Both the position numbers and the translations under genes were made by a program. DNA of 64,000 nucleotides from Chloroflexus sp. Y-396-1 (GTDB lineage Bacteria; Chloroflexota; Chloroflexia; Chloroflexales; Chloroflexaceae). Below, one piece after another: positions 1 to 32,171 of this stretch. The stretch spans positions 4,378,633-4,442,632 of the forward strand of contig NZ_KI911784.1 in the NCBI RefSeq assembly GCF_000516515.1. Reading direction: 5' to 3'. The notes beneath the pieces are model-generated. The model did not search any database. It was given only the letters and a program-made list of their open reading frames with translations, and had not been told where the DNA came from. How positions within the stretch are numbered: position 1 is the stretch's first letter; the number at the start of each line of letters is the position of its first letter.

Positions 1-101
1 CAGGCTGCACCCTATGCAGAACCGCTCTGGGATGGTTGGCAAGTGATGATCGAGCGACCAACACCTGTACTAGTGATCATCACTTTCGGCGAAAAGAATC
101 A

Positions 102-123
<22 letters not shown>
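1..123 (+). CDS. 3' end of an unidentified gene entering from the left edge
   Basis: Frame 1 is open from the first base to a TGA at 121-123 (40 residues). The part before position 101 reads like the tail of a real protein (...WDGWQVMIERPTPVLVI...). The last codons lie inside the left terminal repeat of the 197-bp element at 102-298, so the present C-terminus and stop appear to be supplied by that insertion. The product cannot be named from this fragment. The frame could be open by chance. Confidence 0.35.
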
Positions 124-301
<178 letters not shown>

Positions 302-336
302 ATAGTTAACCCGGTGTGCTGTTGCCATTTTTGAGC

Positions 337-384
337 AGGTATGATGCTATGATAGCAACTAGGTATGACGCTATGATAGCGACA
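337..384 (+). promoter_or_regulatory. Tandem 24-bp repeat, candidate operator of the WYL/cas operon
   Basis: Two adjacent 24-bp units (337-360 and 361-384) differ at only three positions. Each contains the dyad GCTATGATAGC (345-355 and 369-379), which has 5-bp arms around a central G. TATGAT/TATGAC steps inside the units resemble -10 hexamers, and a TTGCCA lies at 322-327. The array sits 35 nt before the WYL regulator start. Two in-phase dyads near a promoter suggest binding by a dimeric regulator, possibly the adjacent WYL protein; that assignment is inference. Confidence 0.5.
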
Positions 385-419
385 GCGATTGAATACCTCA
401 ATGCAAACCAGGAGTTGTT

Positions 420-1451
420 ATGGGTAAGGGTCGCGGATTATCACGAGCCGAGCGCTTGAACGAGATGAAGCGGCTATATGTGCAACGGGCTTTCAGCGAC
501 ATCGAAATGGCCGAGCGACTTGGTATCGATCGCTCTACCGCCTATCGCGACCGCATTGCACTGGAACAGGAATATCCCTTCATTGAAGAAGAACCGGGTC
601 GCTATCGCATTGATCGAAGTCGGTTGATTTCAGAGGTTCGGCTTACCCCTTTCGAAGCACTCTTCCTCTACTTACCGGCCCGCCGTCTGCTGCGCCAAAC
701 CCACACTGCCAATCTCCATGTTGTCCAAGCTGTCGAAAAGCTGGCTACCTGTCTCCAACAGCCGATGACTGAGCGACTCCTGCAACTGACCACTGCCGTG
801 CTCAAGCAGCAAAAACAGCCGCAACGACTGAGCATTCTCGAGCAGATTACAATGGCGTGGCTGAATCAGCGGAAGGTGCGTATTACCTATCGTGCGTTGC
901 GCGCCCGTCGCCCACTTATTCATACCGCCTGCCCGTATCTGATTGAGCCGGCGCTTTGGAGCGATAGCGTGTATGTGATTGCCTATAGTGATGTTGCACG
1001 TGACATTGTACCCTTCAAATTAGAGCGGATTGAAGATGTAGTAACAACGTTAGAGACCTTTGAAATTCCCGAAGATTTCGATGAACAACAACTGCTCCGC
1101 CATACCTGGGGTATCTGGTTGGGCGATGATGAGCCGGTTACAGTACGCCTGCGCTTTGCACCGGGCGACGTGGTGCGACGGGTGCGAGAAACCATCTGGC
1201 ATCCTTCACAACGGATTACCCTGCTCGAAGATGGCGGATGTGAATGGCAGGCTCAGGTTGCCGATTGGCGTGAGATGGTACCCTGGGTGCGCGGCTGGGG
1301 GGCAGCGGTAGAGGTGCTCGAGCCGGTAGAGTTCCGCGAGACGCTGATAGGGGAATCACGCGCACTAGCCGAACGGTACGGCTGGCATGTATCATCTGCA
1401 CCATCCACGACCGGTGAATCAACTACCTTGCAGGACTTTTTCGGAGGTTAG
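420..1451 (+). CDS. WYL-domain transcriptional regulator heading the cas operon
   Basis: 343-residue cytoplasmic DNA-binding protein. The N-terminus carries a helix-turn-helix (about residues 8-50, ...AERLGIDRSTAYRDR...). The C-terminal half is a WYL domain (about 150-215, VRITYR...YLIEPALWSDSVYVIAY...VPFKLERIEDV), followed by a WCX-like segment. WYL proteins bind nucleic-acid or nucleotide ligands and often control CRISPR and other defence loci. The start is supported by AGGAG at 410-414. Its stop falls 4 nt before the cas3 start and its last codons contain the cas3 ribosome-binding site, so the two are co-transcribed. The tandem dyads just upstream suggest autoregulation. Confidence 0.85.
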   Translation: MGKGRGLSRAERLNEMKRLYVQRAFSDIEMAERLGIDRSTAYRDRIALEQEYPFIEEEPGRYRIDRSRLISEVRLTPFEALFLYLPARRLLRQTHTANLHVVQAVEKLATCLQQPMTERLLQLTTAVLKQQKQPQRLSILEQITMAWLNQRKVRITYRALRARRPLIHTACPYLIEPALWSDSVYVIAYSDVARDIVPFKLERIEDVVTTLETFEIPEDFDEQQLLRHTWGIWLGDDEPVTVRLRFAPGDVVRRVRETIWHPSQRITLLEDGGCEWQAQVADWREMVPWVRGWGAAVEVLEPVEFRETLIGESRALAERYGWHVSSAPSTTGESTTLQDFFGG

Positions 1452-1455
1452 ATCA

Positions 1456-3858
1456 ATGCAACTGTACCCTTACCAGCAACGGGTTAAAGACCTCATTCTG
1501 AACGGTAAATCTGTTGTCTTACAAGCACCAACCGGGTCTGGTAAAACACGTGCGGCTTTGGCACCGTTTATTGAAGGATTTTTTGATCGGCCTGCCACTG
1601 CACCGCGCAAATGTGTTTACGTTACTCCGATGCGCGTCCTCGCGAATCAGTTTTATGCCGAATATCATCGGCTCGCTGAGAGCTATTACCGACGTCACGG
1701 TAAATTGCTCGATGTTCGGATTCAAACCGGTGAACAGCCGGACGATAGACGATTTGAAGGGAATCTTATCTTCTGTACCGTTGATCAATTTCTCAGTAGC
1801 TATCTCATGATGCCCTACAGTCTGCCGTATCGGCTGGCGAATGTGAATGCCGGCGCATTTACCGGCGCCTACCTGGTCTTCGACGAGTTTCATCTGTTTG
1901 ATCCAGAAGCAGCGTTACCGACAATTCTCTACGTTCTGCAACAGCTTAAAGGTCTGGCGCCGGTGATGTTAATGACGGCGACATTCAGTGGGGATATGCT
2001 ACAGGCATTAGCAGATCTACTCCATCCGGCTGAAATCGTCACCCTTTCAGCAGATGAGATAATCGCAATAAACACTCGTGGTAATAAACCGGCCCGCCAG
2101 CGCGTCTGGCAGGTTGCCGATACGAACTTACAGGCTGCGACAGTGCTGGCTTCTCACCGCCATAGTTCGATGGTCATCTGTAACACGGTGCGGCGAGCGC
2201 GTGAGCTATATCTCGATCTGAAACAGCAAGCACCGGCAGGCACCGAGATTATTTTGCTGCACAGTCAATTTTTACCGTCGGATCGGCGTCGGATTGAAGA
2301 GAGGCTGCGGAAGCTCCTTGGCATTGGCGCACCTCGTGAACAAGTCAATCTGATCATTGTTGCAACCCAGGTGGTTGAAGTTGGGGTCGATATTTCAGTT
2401 GAGATCCTCCACACCGAACTGGCGCCACCGGCTAGTCTGATCCAGCGGGCCGGTCGCTGTGCCCGCTATCCAGGTGAGACCGGCACGGTTATCGTGTATC
2501 CGGTTGACAAGTATATCCCTTATGCTTTCAAAAATGACGATCTGCTGAAACAAGAGATGGATTCGGCTCTTGCCTGGCTAAAGGAACGCCCAGGACGGGT
2601 GCTCGATTTTACCGATGAACAGGCGTTGGTGAATGCGGTCAGTACACCACGTGATCGGCAGGTAATCGGGAATATCCAGGCCGACCGGAAGAATCGACAG
2701 AGCAACATTCACCGTTGTCTGGACGGTTTTCGTGAAGGAGCTTCGCGATTGCTAGTACGCGATGTTGATAGTCGAACGCTGTTGATCCACCACGAACCAG
2801 ACCAGTTGCTGGCCTCACCTTATGACGCCGTTGGGCTAAACATTCCGCTCTATTCGTTGCGGAGTATGGTCAAAGAATGGTTACAACGACCGGTTACTGT
2901 ACCATGGCGCGTGCGTCGGCTTGATGAAAGTGAGGCAGGTGATCGGTTAGAGAATAATCGGCCTCTCTACCGCTGGGTTGATGTCCGGGATGGTCGTGAT
3001 CTAGAAGCAGCCGCACTGATCGTCGTTCATCCGGCGCTGGCCGGTTACTCAGAACAGGAAGGCTTCTTACCCAACGTCGGTCATTTGCCGTTTCTATCAA
3101 CACTGCCACCTGCGACCACCTTAATTGATCGCACCACTTTTGGGTTGCGAGTCGAACCATACCGCGATCACATCCAACGAGTGCTGGAAGCCTTTACAGA
3201 CCTGGCGCTCCCCGAACTTTATTTTGCCGCCAATGCCCTCGAACGAGTCGCTGGTTGGCAGCGAGGAAGTGTGCTGTGTGCGGCCTGGCTAGCCTGCTTA
3301 TTTCACGATGTCGGGAAGCTCTCGGTTGGCTGGCAGCAGTGGGCGCATGCCTATCAGCAGGCAATCGGGCAACCGATTGCCCAAACCGTTGCCCTAGCCC
3401 ATACTACCTTCGACCGTCAGAATCCAACTCATGCGCAGGCGGAACGACAAGTGTCCCAACACTATCAACGCCCACGTCATGCCGCCGAAGGTGCATTGGC
3501 AGTCGCACACATACTGGCCAAGGCGCTTCCTCATCAGGAACTTGTGAAAGCGACATTAACAGCGATTGCCCGGCATCATGCGCCTTTTGTACAGGATTGT
3601 CAATCATTTAAACTGGTAGATAATGCGAAAGATATTATTAAAGATACGCTACAATTCCTTCCCAAAGATGTCGTCTGTCATGCGAATCCAGATATGCTCT
3701 GGCAACAGGTAGATACCGGTCAAGTGAGCCAGTTTGCCGATCTGCTTACCAGACCGACCGCCCGTTATGGTTGGATTGCCTACTCGTTACTAGCCCGTGC
3801 GCTCCGGCGAGCCGATCAGCGCGGGACTGAAATGGGCCATACACAGGCAACGCCCTAA
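1456..3858 (+). CDS. cas3: CRISPR-associated helicase/nuclease Cas3 with C-terminal HD domain
   Basis: 800 residues from the ATG at 1456, chosen because GGAGG lies at 1443-1447; an upstream in-frame ATG at 1387 has no such site. An SF2 helicase core comes first: Walker A APTGSGKT (24-31), DEFH box (143-146), a TAT-type motif III, and the QRAGRCAR motif VI. The HD nuclease follows at the C-terminus: FHDVGK with His617-Asp618, then RHAAEGA and IARHH. Cas3 unwinds and degrades target DNA recruited by Cascade. HD after helicase is opposite to the usual order in I-C, I-E and I-F. The gene runs directly into the cas8-like gene. Confidence 0.9.
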   Translation: MQLYPYQQRVKDLILNGKSVVLQAPTGSGKTRAALAPFIEGFFDRPATAPRKCVYVTPMRVLANQFYAEYHRLAESYYRRHGKLLDVRIQTGEQPDDRRFEGNLIFCTVDQFLSSYLMMPYSLPYRLANVNAGAFTGAYLVFDEFHLFDPEAALPTILYVLQQLKGLAPVMLMTATFSGDMLQALADLLHPAEIVTLSADEIIAINTRGNKPARQRVWQVADTNLQAATVLASHRHSSMVICNTVRRARELYLDLKQQAPAGTEIILLHSQFLPSDRRRIEERLRKLLGIGAPREQVNLIIVATQVVEVGVDISVEILHTELAPPASLIQRAGRCARYPGETGTVIVYPVDKYIPYAFKNDDLLKQEMDSALAWLKERPGRVLDFTDEQALVNAVSTPRDRQVIGNIQADRKNRQSNIHRCLDGFREGASRLLVRDVDSRTLLIHHEPDQLLASPYDAVGLNIPLYSLRSMVKEWLQRPVTVPWRVRRLDESEAGDRLENNRPLYRWVDVRDGRDLEAAALIVVHPALAGYSEQEGFLPNVGHLPFLSTLPPATTLIDRTTFGLRVEPYRDHIQRVLEAFTDLALPELYFAANALERVAGWQRGSVLCAAWLACLFHDVGKLSVGWQQWAHAYQQAIGQPIAQTVALAHTTFDRQNPTHAQAERQVSQHYQRPRHAAEGALAVAHILAKALPHQELVKATLTAIARHHAPFVQDCQSFKLVDNAKDIIKDTLQFLPKDVVCHANPDMLWQQVDTGQVSQFADLLTRPTARYGWIAYSLLARALRRADQRGTEMGHTQATP

Positions 3859-3877
3859 ATGGAATGGTGGAGTGGTT

Positions 3878-5728
3878 ATGAATTCGTCGATCTATCGCAG
3901 TGAGTATTATGTGGAAAAGCGTACCGCTACATTTGCCGATAATCTGGTTGCGTTTGGTGTAGCTTACGTGCTCAACGGGATTGCCGATGGTCGAGCACGG
4001 ATTACGATTGAGGATTGTGGTCCGTATTTTGCTGTAATCTGCGATCCACCGTTACGTGAAGAGTGGGTTACTCATTGTCAGTTTTTTACCGGTACTTTTT
4101 TACTCATCACCGTTGATCGCAAGAGTCAGCAAAAGTTGATCAAAGGTACTCAGATTGCGGTTGAAACGGTAGCGGCAATGCCAGGAGTTGCTCCTGATTA
4201 CGAACAGGCCAAAAGCGATAACGAAACCTATTGGGCCTGGCGACGTAGTGTGGGCGATCAGTGGCAACAGCTTCAACCACCGGTCGAACCCCACCCCGAT
4301 TGGGAACTCTTTCGGGCAATCAATCCAGCCGCATTGCAAGCCGCTAACAGTGCGGCGGCTGAATGGTTTCAGGGGCAGGTCGCATTTCCAGAGCTACTGA
4401 AAACGGTACTGATCTACGCCAGCGCGTTTCCGAATAAAGAAGAGGATGCGGCAAAACATTGGGCAGCGGTATGTAAACGCCATGGGCTGAAACACTCGAA
4501 ACAGCTCAGCGCCTCTCAATTAATCAATCCAACCCAGGGCAAGGGAACGACCAATAGTAAAGCGATCTTTGCGAAGCCCGGCAATCTTAGTAACTTCTGG
4601 CTTACCGAATACCTGAAGTGGGTTGGATTGCGCTGGGCTGGCTTCACCCGTCTGATCAAGGATAGCAAGGATCGGAAAATCTATGTCCTGGCACCCAACC
4701 GGCTCGACTGGGAACATCACCTGGGTATCCGCGAGCAATTTCGACGCTTGATGATCGGAACCGGCGGCGCAATTCAGCTCGACATCCTGGCGGCGTTGCG
4801 TTACGCGAAAGCAGTCCTGAGCTACGCCGAAGTCAGTCGTGATCAGAGCCTACTGGCTCAGGTGTTCGGCACACACCAAGGTGTTAATAGGCTGGTGTAT
4901 GGACTTGATAGCGCCTACTACAAGAATCTCGGTCAGTCGGCGGCAGTCATGAACATTGCCCGCATTGGCATACCGTCCTGGATCCAACCACAAACGCAGA
5001 ATGATATTCCGCGCTATCAGGCAGTGATTGACGAACACCTGCGGATTGTGCGCAATCTCGATGAAAAACGTGGTGAGGAATATGAATTGCTCCGCAGCTA
5101 CCGTGATTTTCTTTCCACCAATGAACTTGCTACCTTACTGGCATTTACCGATGCGTATTCTGGCTTTGTTATTCAACGCGATAAGCTCGCCCCTCAGTTT
5201 ACAGTTCATTCTCTGGAGGTTATTATGAGTTCGATTGCCCCACCCTTGAGCGAGATCACCAAATCACGAGGCTTTCGTAATCTGGCCTACGCCATTCGCA
5301 TGGCAACCGTTGAAGCCCATCGTCGCAACCTGAAGCGTAATCAGGATAAATACGATGTGTCGTATGAAGTACGGTATGGGCTTGGGCAGGAACTGTTGCG
5401 TAAATCAGCGTATCCCAACGAGTTTATTGTCGCTCTGAGCGAGTTTATTCACGATTACAATGCGGAAAATGCCCGCATGCGAGAACGCTTGGAGCGTCAG
5501 GGTAACTCGCAACCGCGCGGAGCACGCAGCGATGTTTCGATCCAGGATATTGATGAGTTGCTGGCCTTGATGGATAAGTATCGCGATCCGCAGATGATTG
5601 CCAGTTTGCTCGTGGCGTATGGCTATGCCAGCACGTACCAGCGTGATGAAACTTATACGCCTGAGCGTGATACTGACGAGGCAAACGATCAGGACGCTGG
5701 TAGCACTGAGGAATCGGAAGAGGAATAG
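3878..5728 (+). CDS. Large Cascade subunit, Cas8-like
   Basis: 616 residues from the ATG at 3878, preceded by GGTGGAG. No catalytic motif is visible. The assignment rests on size and on position between cas3 and cas7-cas5, where the type I large subunit (PAM recognition, Cas3 recruitment) is encoded. The N-terminus (...YVEKRTATFADNLVAFGVAYVLNGI...) and a C-terminal helical segment (DIDELLALMDKYRDPQMIASLLV) before an acidic tail are consistent with Cas8a/Cas8b-like proteins, but the subtype cannot be fixed by eye. The gene starts 19 nt after cas3 and ends 30 nt before cas7. Confidence 0.7.
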   Translation: MNSSIYRSEYYVEKRTATFADNLVAFGVAYVLNGIADGRARITIEDCGPYFAVICDPPLREEWVTHCQFFTGTFLLITVDRKSQQKLIKGTQIAVETVAAMPGVAPDYEQAKSDNETYWAWRRSVGDQWQQLQPPVEPHPDWELFRAINPAALQAANSAAAEWFQGQVAFPELLKTVLIYASAFPNKEEDAAKHWAAVCKRHGLKHSKQLSASQLINPTQGKGTTNSKAIFAKPGNLSNFWLTEYLKWVGLRWAGFTRLIKDSKDRKIYVLAPNRLDWEHHLGIREQFRRLMIGTGGAIQLDILAALRYAKAVLSYAEVSRDQSLLAQVFGTHQGVNRLVYGLDSAYYKNLGQSAAVMNIARIGIPSWIQPQTQNDIPRYQAVIDEHLRIVRNLDEKRGEEYELLRSYRDFLSTNELATLLAFTDAYSGFVIQRDKLAPQFTVHSLEVIMSSIAPPLSEITKSRGFRNLAYAIRMATVEAHRRNLKRNQDKYDVSYEVRYGLGQELLRKSAYPNEFIVALSEFIHDYNAENARMRERLERQGNSQPRGARSDVSIQDIDELLALMDKYRDPQMIASLLVAYGYASTYQRDETYTPERDTDEANDQDAGSTEESEEE

Positions 5729-5758
5729 TCACATGTGTATAGCCGAGGAGACATCAGT

Positions 5759-6748
5759 ATGAAGCCTATGTTCAGTCTGTCAATTGCTGCTCGTGCCGTC
5801 TTGAACCTCCACTCGTTGAATAACGAGGGTGGTGAGGGGAATCAGATTCAAACGCGGATGGTTAACGTCTTTGCTGATGGTCGTCTGCACAGCGTGAATG
5901 CAATCAGCGGCGACATGTTCAAACATATTCAGTCGGAACACCTGCATCGATTGGCGGTGCAGGCTGGCCTACCCCTTTCAATCGGTGCACGGCTGTTTAA
6001 TGCCAATCGCATAAACTACGATCTCGACATCGACAAAGAGTTTCTCAACCAACTGAAGGGGGCCAAGAGTAATGCGGCTGAGCTTGACCTCATTCTGCAG
6101 CGCTGTGCGGTCACCGATGTGGCAGGAGCGTTGATTACCGCCGAAAACCGCTCGTTGCCGCGCAAGAGTGTCGTCGAGTTTGGTTGGGTTGTCGGTGTTC
6201 CAGGGAGTGTTAAGACCGACTCATACTTCCATGTCAAATTTGAGAGTGAGCGTGGAGGTGGCAGTGCCGGTGTTGATGAGTCGGGATCGATCACCGGAAA
6301 ACAAACTCCCTTCCATCGTCCGGCATCATCGGGTGTCTATGCAATTGTGGTACAGGTTGAGGCAGCACGGGTTGGCTTCAACGATATTTCGCAACGCTAC
6401 GCCATTGATGCCGAACAACGGCAGAAGCGTTTACGCGCCTTGCTCGAGAGTGTGCTCTACACCTTCATCGAGCCTGCCGGTGCTATGCGAACGGCACAGA
6501 ATCCTCATATTCTTGATGTCAGTGGCGTGATCTCGGTCAGCTCGAATGTTCTTCCGGCGCCCTGCATCTCGCCACTGAAAGATGATTTTGTTGCCGATGT
6601 TCAGCGTGTTGCTAACAGTCTGAACGAGCTCCATCCAGGGGCAATTGAGCTGTTTTCATTCGCTTCGCTCGGCGAATTTGCCGAACAGATGAGTCGTCTG
6701 ATTCGGGAAGCTGAACCGTTTACTCTGCCGGTGGTGCAGGGAGAGTAG
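5759..6748 (+). CDS. cas7: Cas7 backbone subunit, DevR/Cst2-like
   Basis: 329 residues from the ATG at 5759, which has GAGGAG 8 nt upstream; an ATG at 5735 lacks such a site. The N-terminus has features of the DevR/Cst2 branch of Cas7 RAMP proteins: SIAARAVLNLHSLNNEGGEG, a conserved Arg, then VNAISGDMFKHIQSEHLHRL. Several copies of Cas7 coat the crRNA guide in Cascade. Glycine-rich loops (...ERGGGSAGVDESGSITGK...) fall where Cas7 carries its guide-binding insertion. The cas5 gene follows after 3 nt. No cas6 is found downstream, so guide processing is not encoded here. Confidence 0.8.
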   Translation: MKPMFSLSIAARAVLNLHSLNNEGGEGNQIQTRMVNVFADGRLHSVNAISGDMFKHIQSEHLHRLAVQAGLPLSIGARLFNANRINYDLDIDKEFLNQLKGAKSNAAELDLILQRCAVTDVAGALITAENRSLPRKSVVEFGWVVGVPGSVKTDSYFHVKFESERGGGSAGVDESGSITGKQTPFHRPASSGVYAIVVQVEAARVGFNDISQRYAIDAEQRQKRLRALLESVLYTFIEPAGAMRTAQNPHILDVSGVISVSSNVLPAPCISPLKDDFVADVQRVANSLNELHPGAIELFSFASLGEFAEQMSRLIREAEPFTLPVVQGE

Positions 6749-6751
6749 CTT

Positions 6752-7456
6752 ATGTGGTTAATTGCCGAATACGAAGCTGTCTCACTCTTCTCGTTGCGTC
6801 CGAGTGCCACGACTGCTTCTGGCGGGAAAACGCTGCTGGCGCCCTCGCCTTTTGCGATCAAGGTAGCGATCTTCGATGCCTTGTGTCGGCTCCAACCGTT
6901 AAGTACGGTGCAGCGCTACTGGCCTGATATTGCCCGCTTGGAAGTAGCATTACGACCGGCAGCGCATGCGGTTGTCTCGAACGTCTTTCAGCGCGTTCTC
7001 CGTCCTAGCCGCAGCAACGCTCAGCCCAATGATCCTGATTTTGAAGGCTTTTTCCAACGGACAATCGGGTATCGTGAGTACGTTCATCTGGTTGGTGCCT
7101 TTGCGATTGGGTTGGGCTGGGAAGGTACAGCGCAACGTGATTGGTTATCTACCGCGTTGATCAATATCACCTATCTCGGCAAACGGGGCGGTTTTGTTCA
7201 ACTGCTACAGGCACCCGAATACAAGGAAGTCTTACCGCCAGACTTTATTTCGCTCACTCAACCTGGTATGAATTTCCCGCTTGACGGAACTCTCCAGGTC
7301 TTAGATGATTGTGATGATAAAGTGAGCTTTGAGAAGGTGAATATTTATGATCAGACAAAAAAGCTGTCGAAAGATGACCGTCAGCCGCGACATGTAGTAT
7401 TACCCTACCGATTAAGACGTTCGTCTAAATCGTTCTCGTGGTACGAACGGATCTAA
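6752..7456 (+). CDS. cas5: CRISPR-associated protein Cas5
   Basis: 234 residues beginning 3 nt after the cas7 stop, with GGGAGAG as ribosome-binding site. The N-terminal strand (MWLIAEYEAVSLFSLRPS) and the following glycine-containing segment before LAPSPFAIKVAIFDAL match the Cas5 RAMP fold, which caps the 5' handle of crRNA in Cascade. Length is typical of Cas5. This is the last gene of the operon, followed by a hairpin at 7481-7504. Cas5 acts as guide processor in I-C systems; nothing here shows whether it does so in this locus. Confidence 0.75.
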   Translation: MWLIAEYEAVSLFSLRPSATTASGGKTLLAPSPFAIKVAIFDALCRLQPLSTVQRYWPDIARLEVALRPAAHAVVSNVFQRVLRPSRSNAQPNDPDFEGFFQRTIGYREYVHLVGAFAIGLGWEGTAQRDWLSTALINITYLGKRGGFVQLLQAPEYKEVLPPDFISLTQPGMNFPLDGTLQVLDDCDDKVSFEKVNIYDQTKKLSKDDRQPRHVVLPYRLRRSSKSFSWYERI

Positions 7457-7480
7457 CAGCACCTCGTGACTAATAAAGGT

Positions 7481-7504
7481 AGGGGCACGTTACATCGTGC
7501 CCCT
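7481..7504. terminator. Hairpin between convergent cas5 and redoxin genes
   Basis: AGGGGCACG (7481-7489) pairs perfectly with CGTGCCCCT (7496-7504) around a 6-nt loop. Read on the minus strand it is followed by ACCTTTATTA, so it suits the redoxin transcript best; it can act for both. Confidence 0.55.
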
Positions 7505-7525
7505 CCTCCCCGTCATCCTCCGCTG

Positions 7526-8104
7526 TCATCCCCCCAACGCATCCAACACTGCTGCTAGCTCGGCAGGGCGTGGTGGTGTAAAGACGACAGACAAAGGTGC
7601 TGCCCAATTCCAGCGAATGATCCCGTTGGCATCAATGACGAAAACACCGGGTAAGGGAACTCCCATCGCCGATCCCATCCCGTAGCGGTAAAATACTTCC
7701 CATTCGGGGTCGCTCAGAATTGGATATGGCGCACGCAAAACCTCGGCCACGTAGCTGGTCATTTCGAGATCAGTACTGCTAACGACCAACAGATGGGCAT
7801 TGCGCTGGACGAACAGCTCATAATGCTCCCGCAACGCATCCAGTTGCGGCGCGCAGTGCGGTCAGAAGAAGCGGTCACTGACAATCCGGGTAAGATTGAG
7901 TACAACCGGTCGACCACGCAGCGCGCTGAGGGTGATCGTGCGGCCATATTCCACCCGATCCTCCGGTGGCCCGCTTATGAACTGAGCATACGGTAGAGTA
8001 AAATCGGGTGCCTCACTACCAACTGGCGGTACGTTGGCCGGGCCGCGCGGTCTAATGAATTCTTGCCGCCATTTGGCCGTCATAGGAATGAAGGGTCTTG
8101 CCAT
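7526..8104 (-). CDS. AhpC/TSA-type redoxin with in-frame TGA, candidate selenoprotein (UxxC)
   Basis: 192 codons from the ATG at 8104, behind CGGAGG. Codon 81 (7862-7864) is TGA, and the same frame continues for 111 sense codons to a TGA at 7526. The sequence on both sides is one redoxin: VGSEAPDFTLPY...LRGRPVVLNLTRIVSDRFF-[TGA]-PHCAPQLDALREHYELF...ILSDPEWEVFYRYGMG...PGVFVIDANGIIRWNW. From family knowledge, relatives have CPxC after the TRIF-type strand, so the TGA replaces the first Cys and leaves Cys84, giving UPHC. A SECIS-like hairpin follows. Alternatives are a recent nonsense mutation or a base error. No selenocysteine machinery is encoded in the window. As family members do, it would reduce peroxides or disulfides in the cytoplasm. 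Confidence 0.75.
7829..7864 (-). promoter_or_regulatory. SECIS-like hairpin after the in-frame TGA
   Basis: On the minus strand CCGCAAC (7849-7843) pairs perfectly with GTTGCGG (7835-7829) around the 7-nt loop TGGATGC. The loop's second base is G and lies 21 nt after the TGA at 7864-7862. This agrees with the bacterial SECIS rules I recall: stem of 4-16 bp, small apical loop with G among its first two bases, 16-37 nt from UGA. Such short stems are common in GC-rich coding sequence, so support comes from position and motif context. Confidence 0.55.
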
Positions 8105-8280
8105 AATACCTCCGCAGGAAAAGAAACACTTCTTTATGTAGTATACCCCGATTTGCAGGAGATTGAAGATAGGAGATAGCAAATAGCCAGGGTGAAAATC
8201 CCTCTTTCGCTCTCTGGCAGGAGTGGAATGAGGCCAGATGGTTGGTGGGGATGCTAACTCCCCTTCCTCAAAACCATAAT

Positions 8281-8477
8281 TGAGTCTACTGCAAAAACAA
8301 GCACATAGGGCGCGCAGAGTGTGCAAGATTTATGAGTAAAAGGGTAAATTTTTCAACCTTTTAAGGTATATATGAAAAATTTTACGCTCTATTTCGGACA
8401 GAAGATAAATCTATCTTTAGTCTCTGTGATCTCTGTGGTCTCTGTGGTGAGACGATTGCCTTTTTGCAGTGAAGTCA
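8281..8477 (-). mobile_element. 197-bp MITE-like element, copy 2 (inverted)
   Basis: It begins TGAGTCTACTGCAAAAA (8281-8297) and ends CCTTTTTGCAGTGAAGTCA (8459-8477). The latter is the exact reverse complement of the left end of copy 1. Length equals copy 1. TAAT flanks both sides (8277-8280 and 8478-8481) as a 4-bp target duplication. The element is inserted between the redoxin gene and the RRM-gene promoter, whose -35 lies 23 nt beyond its right end. No coding capacity. Confidence 0.8.
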
Positions 8478-8499
8478 TAATTCCTTCCAAAAATCCCAC

Positions 8500-8527
8500 T
8501 TGCAATTTCAGAAAAGTGTGTTATAGT
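8500..8527 (+). promoter_or_regulatory. Sigma70-like promoter of the RRM gene
   Basis: TTGCAA (8500-8505), 16-bp spacer, TATAGT (8522-8527). It lies just outside MITE copy 2. Initiation near 8534 would give a leader of about 215 nt before the ATG at 8751. Confidence 0.55.
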
Positions 8528-8533
8528 AAGCAG

Positions 8534-8750
8534 GTAAGTCAACGTCGTGTGCTGCAAGACCGGTATCAGAGAACTCTCGTGAATTTGGTCGATCGGCAAT
8601 GCTTCATCGCTCGAAGCAAGTACGTTGTCGATCGCCGGAGCGACCAACTGATCCAACAAGATCGATGGCGGCAGTACGAGAGGTCTGTGATAGCCGGTTT
8701 TTGATATGCCATGACGGTATGTCAAACCAAGTTTCTGTGGAGTATGTGCA
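8534..8750 (+). promoter_or_regulatory. Long structured 5' leader of the RRM gene
   Basis: Nested pairing is visible: TTGGTC (8585-8590) with GACCAA (8642-8647), GATCGGCAA (8591-8599) with TTGTCGATC (8625-8633, one mismatch), and TGCTTC (8600-8605) with GAAGCA (8613-8618). A second hairpin TTGATATGCC/GGTATGTCAA (8701-8710/8716-8725, two G-U pairs) stands just before GTGGAG (8738-8743) and the start codon. No open frame of interest lies inside. Cold-induced RNA-binding protein genes of cyanobacteria are known to have long leaders; a thermosensor role here is inference. Confidence 0.5.
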
Positions 8751-9035
8751 ATGTTGGTAAAACTGTTCGTCGGGAATTTGCCGTGGAATGTGGGCGATGC
8801 TGAGCTGGGTTCGATCTTCGAGCCGCATGGTGAAGTACAGAGTGCACGGGTCATCAATGACCGTGATACCGGTCGCTCGCGTGGTTTTGGCTTCGTTGAG
8901 ATTGAAACCAATAACGTCGCCGCTGTCATCCGGGCAACCGATGGTCTTGAGGTAGGTGGACGAAATCTGAGGGTAAACGAGGCGGAAGATAAGCCACGTA
9001 ACGCGCCTCGTGGTGGTTTTGGGCGCCGCTATTAG
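8751..9035 (+). CDS. RRM-type RNA-binding protein
   Basis: 94 residues forming one RNA recognition motif plus a short basic Gly/Arg tail (PRNAPRGGFGRRY). RNP2 is LFVGNL (residues 5-10) and RNP1 is RGFGFVEI (about 44-51), with the aromatic residues that stack on RNA. Small glycine-tailed RRM proteins of this type are cold-induced RNA chaperones in cyanobacteria and other bacteria. Monocistronic: it has its own promoter, a long leader and a strong terminator at 9061. Confidence 0.92.
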   Translation: MLVKLFVGNLPWNVGDAELGSIFEPHGEVQSARVINDRDTGRSRGFGFVEIETNNVAAVIRATDGLEVGGRNLRVNEAEDKPRNAPRGGFGRRY

Positions 9036-32011: not shown

Positions 32012-32062
32012 CGCTCACAACGTTCGTATGCGGCGCCATAAGGCGTCGGCGAACTTCAGATG

Positions 32063-32155
32063 CTCATCGAGATGGGCTGAGGGACTGGCCCGATGACGCC
32101 CGGCAACCCCCTGCGGGGAAGGTGCCAAATCCAGCGGCAATTGCCGAAAGATGAG
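32063..32155 (+). promoter_or_regulatory. SAM-I (S-box) riboswitch aptamer
   Basis: The S-box core is plain: P1 CTCATC (32063-32068) with GATGAG (32150-32155), GAGGGACTGGCCCGATGA, CCCGGCAACC, the GGGG-closed P3 region, GGTGCCAAATCC, and GAAAGATGAG at the end. SAM binding stabilises P1 and favours the downstream terminator hairpin at 32172-32198, lowering expression of the methionine/SAM genes when SAM is high. It lies 61 nt before mtnA. Confidence 0.95.
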
Positions 32156-32171
32156 AGGAACGAAGTTTATC

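Follow-up and report, generated by a model that had tools for sequence, protein, structure and literature searches.

A redoxin gene with a conserved in-frame TGA, probably read as selenocysteine, in Chloroflexus and related phototrophs

A TGA codon in the middle of a reading frame may be a true stop, and the gene around it a decayed one, or it may be the site at which selenocysteine (Sec) enters a longer protein; the locus described here raises this question for a redoxin of Chloroflexus sp. Y-396-1. The window, that is the whole stretch of 64,000 nucleotides that was analysed, comes from a genome of 4,890,986 bases in one contig, and a preliminary description of it had placed at 7526-8104 a redoxin frame of 192 codons, intact but for one TGA at codon 81. 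Translation bears out both the coordinates and the frame and assigns the gene to the minus strand, which had been left unstated: from 8104 down to 7526 the sequence reads ATG, 80 codons, TGA, 111 codons and a terminal TGA, and the plus strand of the same interval gives a translation unrelated to redoxins. The coding sequence, recognised by PF00578 and by its orthologues, would specify 192 residues with Sec at position 81. By direct reading of the sequence, a Shine-Dalgarno-like GGAGGT (8108-8113, minus strand) lies 3 bases before the ATG. The in-frame TGA occupies 7862-7864 and the TGC codon of Cys84, the only cysteine of the predicted protein, occupies 7853-7855, both on the minus strand; on read-through the active-site motif is Sec81-Pro-His-Cys84 (U-P-H-C), and the 111 codons past the TGA contain LSDPEWEVFYRYG and PGVFVIDANGIIRWNW. 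As had been foreseen for standard gene callers, a plain ORF list divides this frame, yielding an ORF of 154 aa up to the TGA and another of 102 aa after it. Among the 12 AhpC-TSA matches in the window's genome, an internal stop occurs in this redoxin alone.

The gene was found in 28 of the 41 genomes of the family, 27 of them with the TGA and one (G001) with a Cys paralogue only. Within the genus Chloroflexus, represented by eight genomes, six carry the TGA gene (the window's, G002, G003, G004, G006 and G007), and no redoxin gene was found in one (G005). The 26 full-length TGA copies all have the TGA in one alignment column, never TAA or TAG, and share the active-site motif U81-P-[HN]-C84; this count includes a copy with Tyr after the Cys (G413/L092) and leaves out G409, whose frame is broken past the TGA in a draft assembly, as well as a partial second copy in G401 (L111). 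Named records, which overlap with these 26 copies, likewise have the TGA at 21 of 21 orthologous loci, from Chloroflexus, Viridilinea, Chloroploca, Oscillochloris and less closely classified Chloroflexota bacteria, and one of these loci (L079) has a Cys copy besides the TGA copy. A Bryobacteraceae record (L097), a 28% match in a contig scan, was dropped from the orthologous loci. Comparison of the same codon among relatives, a check that the preliminary description had named, thus finds the TGA kept, with TGC only in two Cys paralogues. The Sec site of these paralogues is thus occupied by Cys, and Cys84 is invariant in alignments A1 and A2. In a phylum sample of 400 genomes, matches at E<=1e-15 came from three genomes outside family f1, with 60-64 bits; G264 and G284 were rejected as Sec homologues, their matches being CxxC redoxin domains with no stop, and no UxxC frame was found by script in G110. 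As far as found, the redoxin subfamily is restricted to one Chloroflexota family of phototrophs.

A search of the window's genome for selA, selB, selC and selD, likewise named as a check at the outset, recovered all four. The tRNA-Sec gene scores 70.8 bits against the Rfam model (gathering score 47), is called tRNA-SeC with anticodon tca (UCA) by ARAGORN and has, on reading of the sequence, an acceptor stem of 8 bp; the Rfam model is unspecific when taken alone, as a tRNA-Ser in this genome passes it too, with 48.6 bits, and it has matches in 14 of 14 control genomes, above cut-off in five. For selA the match is 563 bits (PF03841), and for selB it is 318 bits in the main match and 341 with a neighbour in frame, against a cut-off of 242, with the SelB winged-helix domains PF09106 and PF09107 present. 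The selD gene (G000:C1:2451845-2452768, minus strand; locus L113:1408-2454) reaches 383 bits and has an in-frame TGA of its own, in LAACAGUAAKLGP. These four genes are scattered far apart on the chromosome. Among the 14 control genomes, matches above cut-off were obtained in one for selA, in two for selB and in two for selD. Across the family, selA is present in 34 of the 41 genomes and selD exceeds its cut-off in 31, with one TGA in a full match in 29 of these, one TGA in a split match in G407 and no TGA in G225; a selD with TGA was also noted in six of the eight selA-bearing genomes of the family without the redoxin. Those eight (G005, G019, G289, G402, G403, G404, G407 and G415) may use Sec in other proteins.

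This machinery and the TGA redoxin co-vary, though G401, G004, G007 and the eight selA-bearing genomes that lack the redoxin depart from a perfect fit. A selA gene accompanies the TGA redoxin in 26 of 27 genomes, the exception being G401, a draft of 1640 contigs with 7% contamination, which holds a TGA redoxin and a selD with TGA and gave no selA match. Similarly, selD exceeds its cut-off in 25 of the 27, the exceptions (G004 and G007) both being drafts. Scored as selA or selD above cut-off, the machinery is present in 27/27 genomes with the TGA redoxin versus 8/14 of the others (Fisher p 0.0007, kinship ignored).

A candidate bSECIS hairpin (7829-7849, minus strand) follows the TGA. In Chloroflexus it reads CCGCAAC-UGGAUGC-GUUGCGG and begins at the 13th base past the TGA, with a 7-bp stem (CCGCAAC/GUUGCGG), a 7-nt loop (UGGAUGC) that has G at position 2, and 19 nt between the UGA and the loop; the window's hairpin taken alone has an energy of -11.1 kcal/mol, and its dimensions fall within the limits for bacterial SECIS elements published in the available part of PMC13188914. 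The region is under synonymous constraint: of 170 twelve-codon windows, synonymous variation is lowest in those at codon 82 (0.059) and codon 81 (0.062), the median being 0.616, and across the 26 copies the minimum is again at codon 81 (0.227; median 0.646). The stem takes one register in Chloroflexus and G414, the latter with AGC/GCU replacing AAC/GUU, and another elsewhere, most other genera having a second register such as CCGCAGC-UGGAU-GCUUUGCGG with two unpaired U. Among the 26 TGA copies, which amount to 25 distinct rows of 48 bases, 92.0% of cells pair in the second register (shuffled mean 86.8, with 0 of 500 shuffles as high), one pair only changing on both sides. This pair, at columns 21/29, is G-C in 11 of the 25 rows, C-G in 8 and unpaired in the 6 Chloroflexus rows, and RNAalifold also predicts it. 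In the first register 84.6% of cells pair over the same 25 rows, a value reached in 391 of 500 shuffles, and no pair was found changed on both sides.

At the protein level the exchange at columns 21/29 corresponds to Gln87 with Ala90 versus His87 with Gly90. Both Cys paralogues (G001 and G007) combine His87 with Ala90, so that the RNA pair is broken, and the coupling is therefore not required by the protein; in neither of these paralogues is the candidate stem formed. With the better of the two registers taken for each, the isolated hairpin attains the energy limit of -7.5 kcal/mol in 25 of the 26 TGA copies, and G348, with a broken pair, has -4.8 kcal/mol. Folding of single sequences was considered as support and set aside: without constraint, the 51 bases from the window fold into a different pairing whose energy is unremarkable (z -0.96, equalled by 37 of 200 shuffles), and the stem core appears in the 48-base minimum-energy fold of only 14 of the 26 copies, a set to which the window's copy does not belong. 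It is the comparison among copies that argues for the candidate hairpin.

The two paralogues that have Cys (TGC) at the Sec site in place of the TGA are those of G001 and its sister G007. In G007 a Sec and a Cys redoxin stand side by side (C29:81947-83164; L014, L018) and are 72% identical. In G001, a genome of one contig and the clearest case of co-variation with the Sec machinery, only the Cys copy is present; no TGA redoxin copy was found there, nor selA at E<=0.001, selB at E<=1e-60 or selD at E<=1e-20, and the genome keeps a tRNA-Sec gene (70.9 bits, C1:4496440-4496532) that we regard as an orphan, or a recently orphaned one. The Cys copies of the two genomes are 85% identical to each other and 71-77% to the Sec copies (four comparisons), and they are joined with support 97/100 in a redoxin tree whose outgroups are too distant to polarise the Sec versus the Cys state. 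Since the tree groups the G001 copy with the Cys copy of G007, we rejected the idea that Sec was simply converted to Cys in G001; loss of the Sec paralogue and of the machinery, with the Cys paralogue retained, is the likelier history of this genome. The pair forms a natural experiment, with a Cys paralogue and tRNA-Sec only in G001 and both Sec and Cys copies in its sister G007. Evolution has here supplied a control of unusual clarity, and what Sec costs or brings, compared with Cys at the same active site, can be tested directly in closely related genomes.

Could the TGA still end the protein, the gene having decayed or yielding a product of 80 residues with the remainder as debris? Under table 11 the codon formally counts as a stop, and the plain ORF list ends there, yet selection downstream of it speaks strongly against this reading. 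Before the TGA (codons 1-80) the six Chloroflexus copies have a mean pN/pS of 0.064, and past it (codons 96 to the end) one of 0.12; in the 26 copies the corresponding means are 0.281 and 0.285, the ratios being rough (pS 0.62-0.67). With the downstream half so constrained, the TGA is unlikely to be the end of the protein. The persistence of TGA, never TAA or TAG, in 26/26 full-length copies and the invariance in A2 of Cys84, which lies past the TGA, point the same way; a decayed gene was rejected on these grounds of selection and conservation, and a true stop of either sort is scarcely credible. An assembly error as the source of the TGA was also considered and rejected. It is very improbable, too, that the codon is read as another residue, either as Cys through a recoding tRNA or as Trp under a changed code. 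In favour of such a reading, the tRNA-Sec gene persists in G001, where selA, selB and selD were not found; against it, selA, selB and selD are present in the window's genome and no TGA copy was found in G001. A changed code in particular was rejected on two counts, that the redoxin gene itself terminates in TGA and that the residue found at this position in the paralogues is Cys rather than Trp.

Selenocysteine is thus the reading that we prefer. What the sequences show directly is the reading frame, the conservation of its TGA, the genes of the Sec machinery, a constrained hairpin and purifying selection downstream, and on such comparative evidence the redoxin gene is almost certainly a real selenoprotein gene. 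The proposed explanation as a whole, in which Sec is inserted at codon 81 by way of SelA, SelB and SelD into a UxxC oxidoreductase, also appears very probable. As we infer the insertion of Sec, the binding of SelB and the chemistry, SelA would make Sec on the UCA-anticodon tRNA-Sec with selenophosphate from SelD, and SelB would bind the candidate hairpin downstream and bring the Sec-tRNA to the UGA at codon 81. The ribosome would then yield one thioredoxin-fold (AhpC-TSA) protein of 192 residues with Sec81-Pro-His-Cys84 in its active site. There, Sec would most likely be the nucleophile of a thiol:disulfide/selenol oxidoreductase cycling through a Sec81-Cys84 selenenylsulfide, which is proposed because the redoxin has no other Cys; reduction of peroxide by the same motif is possible.

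The redoxin matches PF00578 (AhpC-TSA) with 85.4 bits (cut-off 26) and PF08534 (Redoxin) with 58.8 bits, and it reaches no NCBIfam cut-off: the best match, to NF040769 (SelL-related), has 37.5 bits against a cut-off of 120 and covers residues 79-146 only, and NF040737 (PrxU) gives 22.4 bits against 270. The PxxxTxxU motif of PrxU is absent, residue 78 being Arg, not Thr or Ser. An AlphaFold model has a mean pLDDT of 86, which falls to 65 over residues 71-80, immediately preceding the Sec. Relatives retrieved by fold search are peroxiredoxin-like thioredoxin folds (6j13, 5ovq, 5enu and 1xvw), and those retrieved by profile search are 5ovq, 2ywn, 6j13 and 3drn, with ResA lower down. Four distinct PDB alignments were available; in those with 5ovq, 2ywn and 3drn, Cys84 faces the last position of TxxC (Ser in 3drn) and the Sec faces its Thr, and in the gapped alignment with 6j13 it is Sec81 that faces the TxxC Cys.

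With Cys84 facing the TxxC position and Arg rather than Thr at residue 78, UxxC thiol:disulfide/selenol exchange is favoured, and we judge it the probable activity of the redoxin, ahead of classical peroxiredoxin catalysis. The preliminary description had left the choice between a peroxidase and a thiol reductase; of the two, the thiol reductase is the better supported, Sec standing first in UxxC and Cys84 lying opposite TxxC in three of four alignments, and the peroxidase has become the less favoured. An enzyme in which Sec is inserted and acts as in a peroxidase, as a kind of Sec-peroxiredoxin, is a possibility to which we give distinctly less weight. It would fit the best solved relatives by profile and fold, all peroxiredoxins (5ovq, 6j13, 2ywn and 1xvw), the placing of Sec81 opposite the TxxC Cys in the 6j13 alignment, and the span of PF00578, which takes in both kinds; it fits poorly with the other three alignments, in which the TxxC position is set against Cys84 and its Thr against Sec, and with the score for PrxU, far below its cut-off. 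The Sec also lies outside the TxxU arrangement given for Sec-peroxiredoxins in the accessible parts of PMC1794560 and PMC13188914, residue 78 being Arg.

In the window, the redoxin gene converges with three plus-strand ORFs (3797-7456, from the ORF list), the middle one of which (5735-6748) encodes, by domain match, the CRISPR-associated DevR/Csa2; the flanking ORFs of 643 aa and 234 aa had no Pfam match at E<=0.001, and no direct repeats of at least 24 bases were found in positions 1-9000. Divergent from the redoxin lies the gene of a small single-RRM RNA-binding protein (8751-9035, plus strand, domain match). A SAM riboswitch (32061-32157, plus strand, 84.6 bits) is the only Rfam match in the window at gathering thresholds. 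Most other genera have a different arrangement, in which an SRPBCC-type gene (PF10604) precedes the redoxin on the same strand; such SRPBCC/polyketide-cyclase-like genes stand directly upstream of the Sec-redoxin at L089:3526-3996, at L091:3293-3994 and at other loci, and two members that were scanned score 35.6 and 37.6 bits against PF10604 (cut-off 27.4).

A close SRPBCC orthologue, defined by more than 200 bits, a line chosen after the list was inspected, is present in 27 of the 41 family genomes; at E<=1e-10 the number is 28, with G414 included only by a weak 64.8-bit match. Of the 21 genomes outside Chloroflexus that carry the redoxin, 18 (all except G225, G031 and G414) have this orthologue within 400 bases upstream of that gene; in all eight Chloroflexus genomes the orthologue is unlinked to the redoxin. 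Both genes occur together in 26 of the 41 genomes, with the redoxin only in 2, the SRPBCC gene only in 1 and neither in 12 (p 1.4e-7, kinship ignored). This adjacency and co-occurrence suggests that the two share a pathway, and, speculatively, the SRPBCC ligand-binding protein may hand substrate to the redoxin. A bolder proposal, for which the chances seem slim, is that of a selenoenzyme subfamily peculiar to the filamentous anoxygenic phototrophs of the Chloroflexus family and working with an SRPBCC ligand-binding partner that presents a hydrophobic oxidised molecule; examples of such a cargo might be the peroxide of a lipid, quinone or pigment, or else a disulfide linked to a lipid.

The remark in the preliminary description that selenium is not usually associated with this lineage holds only in part. 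In the portions available, a 2006 survey gives three selenoproteins of three families for Chloroflexi (PMC1794560), and Sec use has been inferred in genomes of Dehalogenimonas and Anaerolineales (PMC4918011, PMC4959059). The accessible main text of the survey names neither Chloroflexus nor Dehalococcoides (PMC1794560); since Chloroflexi selenoproteins are counted there without their hosts being named, the redoxin gene may have been seen before. In the passages available of PMC4918011, PMC7331816 and PMC4959059, Chloroflexus is mentioned for other reasons only. A term search of the C. aurantiacus genome paper (PMC3150298) found no word beginning with 'selen', and term searches of PMC5029168 and PMC1273633 gave no match. 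Among titles and the opening lines of abstracts in the open literature, none was found on such a selenoprotein in Chloroflexus, its relatives or anoxygenic phototrophs. The kind of protein is thus known, that of the PF00578 selenoproteins with UxxC, and what is new is a family-wide member in phototrophs, of which the parts of the literature searched gave no report. The significance of the case lies in a family-wide selenoprotein that falls below every NCBIfam cut-off, in phototrophs for which no reported selenoprotein was found in the literature, and in its illustration of how a plain ORF list splits a selenoprotein gene.

Set beside known selenoprotein families, the redoxin stands nearest in the NCBIfam profiles to the SelL-related proteins (NF040769), which are the best match and are hit by 13 of 13 A2 members at E<=0.001, the redoxin itself remaining below the cut-off; SelL has UxxU. 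With PrxU (NF040737), which has Sec in its active site, it has an AhpC-TSA type domain in common, the score again falling far short of the cut-off, and the Sec stands at opposite ends of the motif, UxxC in the redoxin and TxxU in PrxU. Selenoproteins of PF00578 or PF08534 with UxxC are a listed kind in the available parts of PMC13188914 and PMC9312934. One entry listed in the accessible part of PMC13188914, a 'Redoxin family protein' (HEU0032618.1), is likened to the redoxin by UxxC and PF08534, which both have, but the redoxin matches PF00578 better (85.4 versus 58.8 bits). Another, the Prx-like thiol:disulfide oxidoreductases (WP_010940744.1), combines PF00578 with Sec as the first residue of UxxC, as does the redoxin, and is likened to it by the same listings (PMC13188914 and PMC9312934, as far as available). 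The hosts named for these oxidoreductases in the portion of PMC1794560 available are Deltaproteobacteria and a clostridium, whereas the redoxin subfamily was found in one Chloroflexota family only, and the subfamily differs further from the Prx-like oxidoreductases (PF00578, UxxC/UxxU) in having a frequent neighbour gene of its own.
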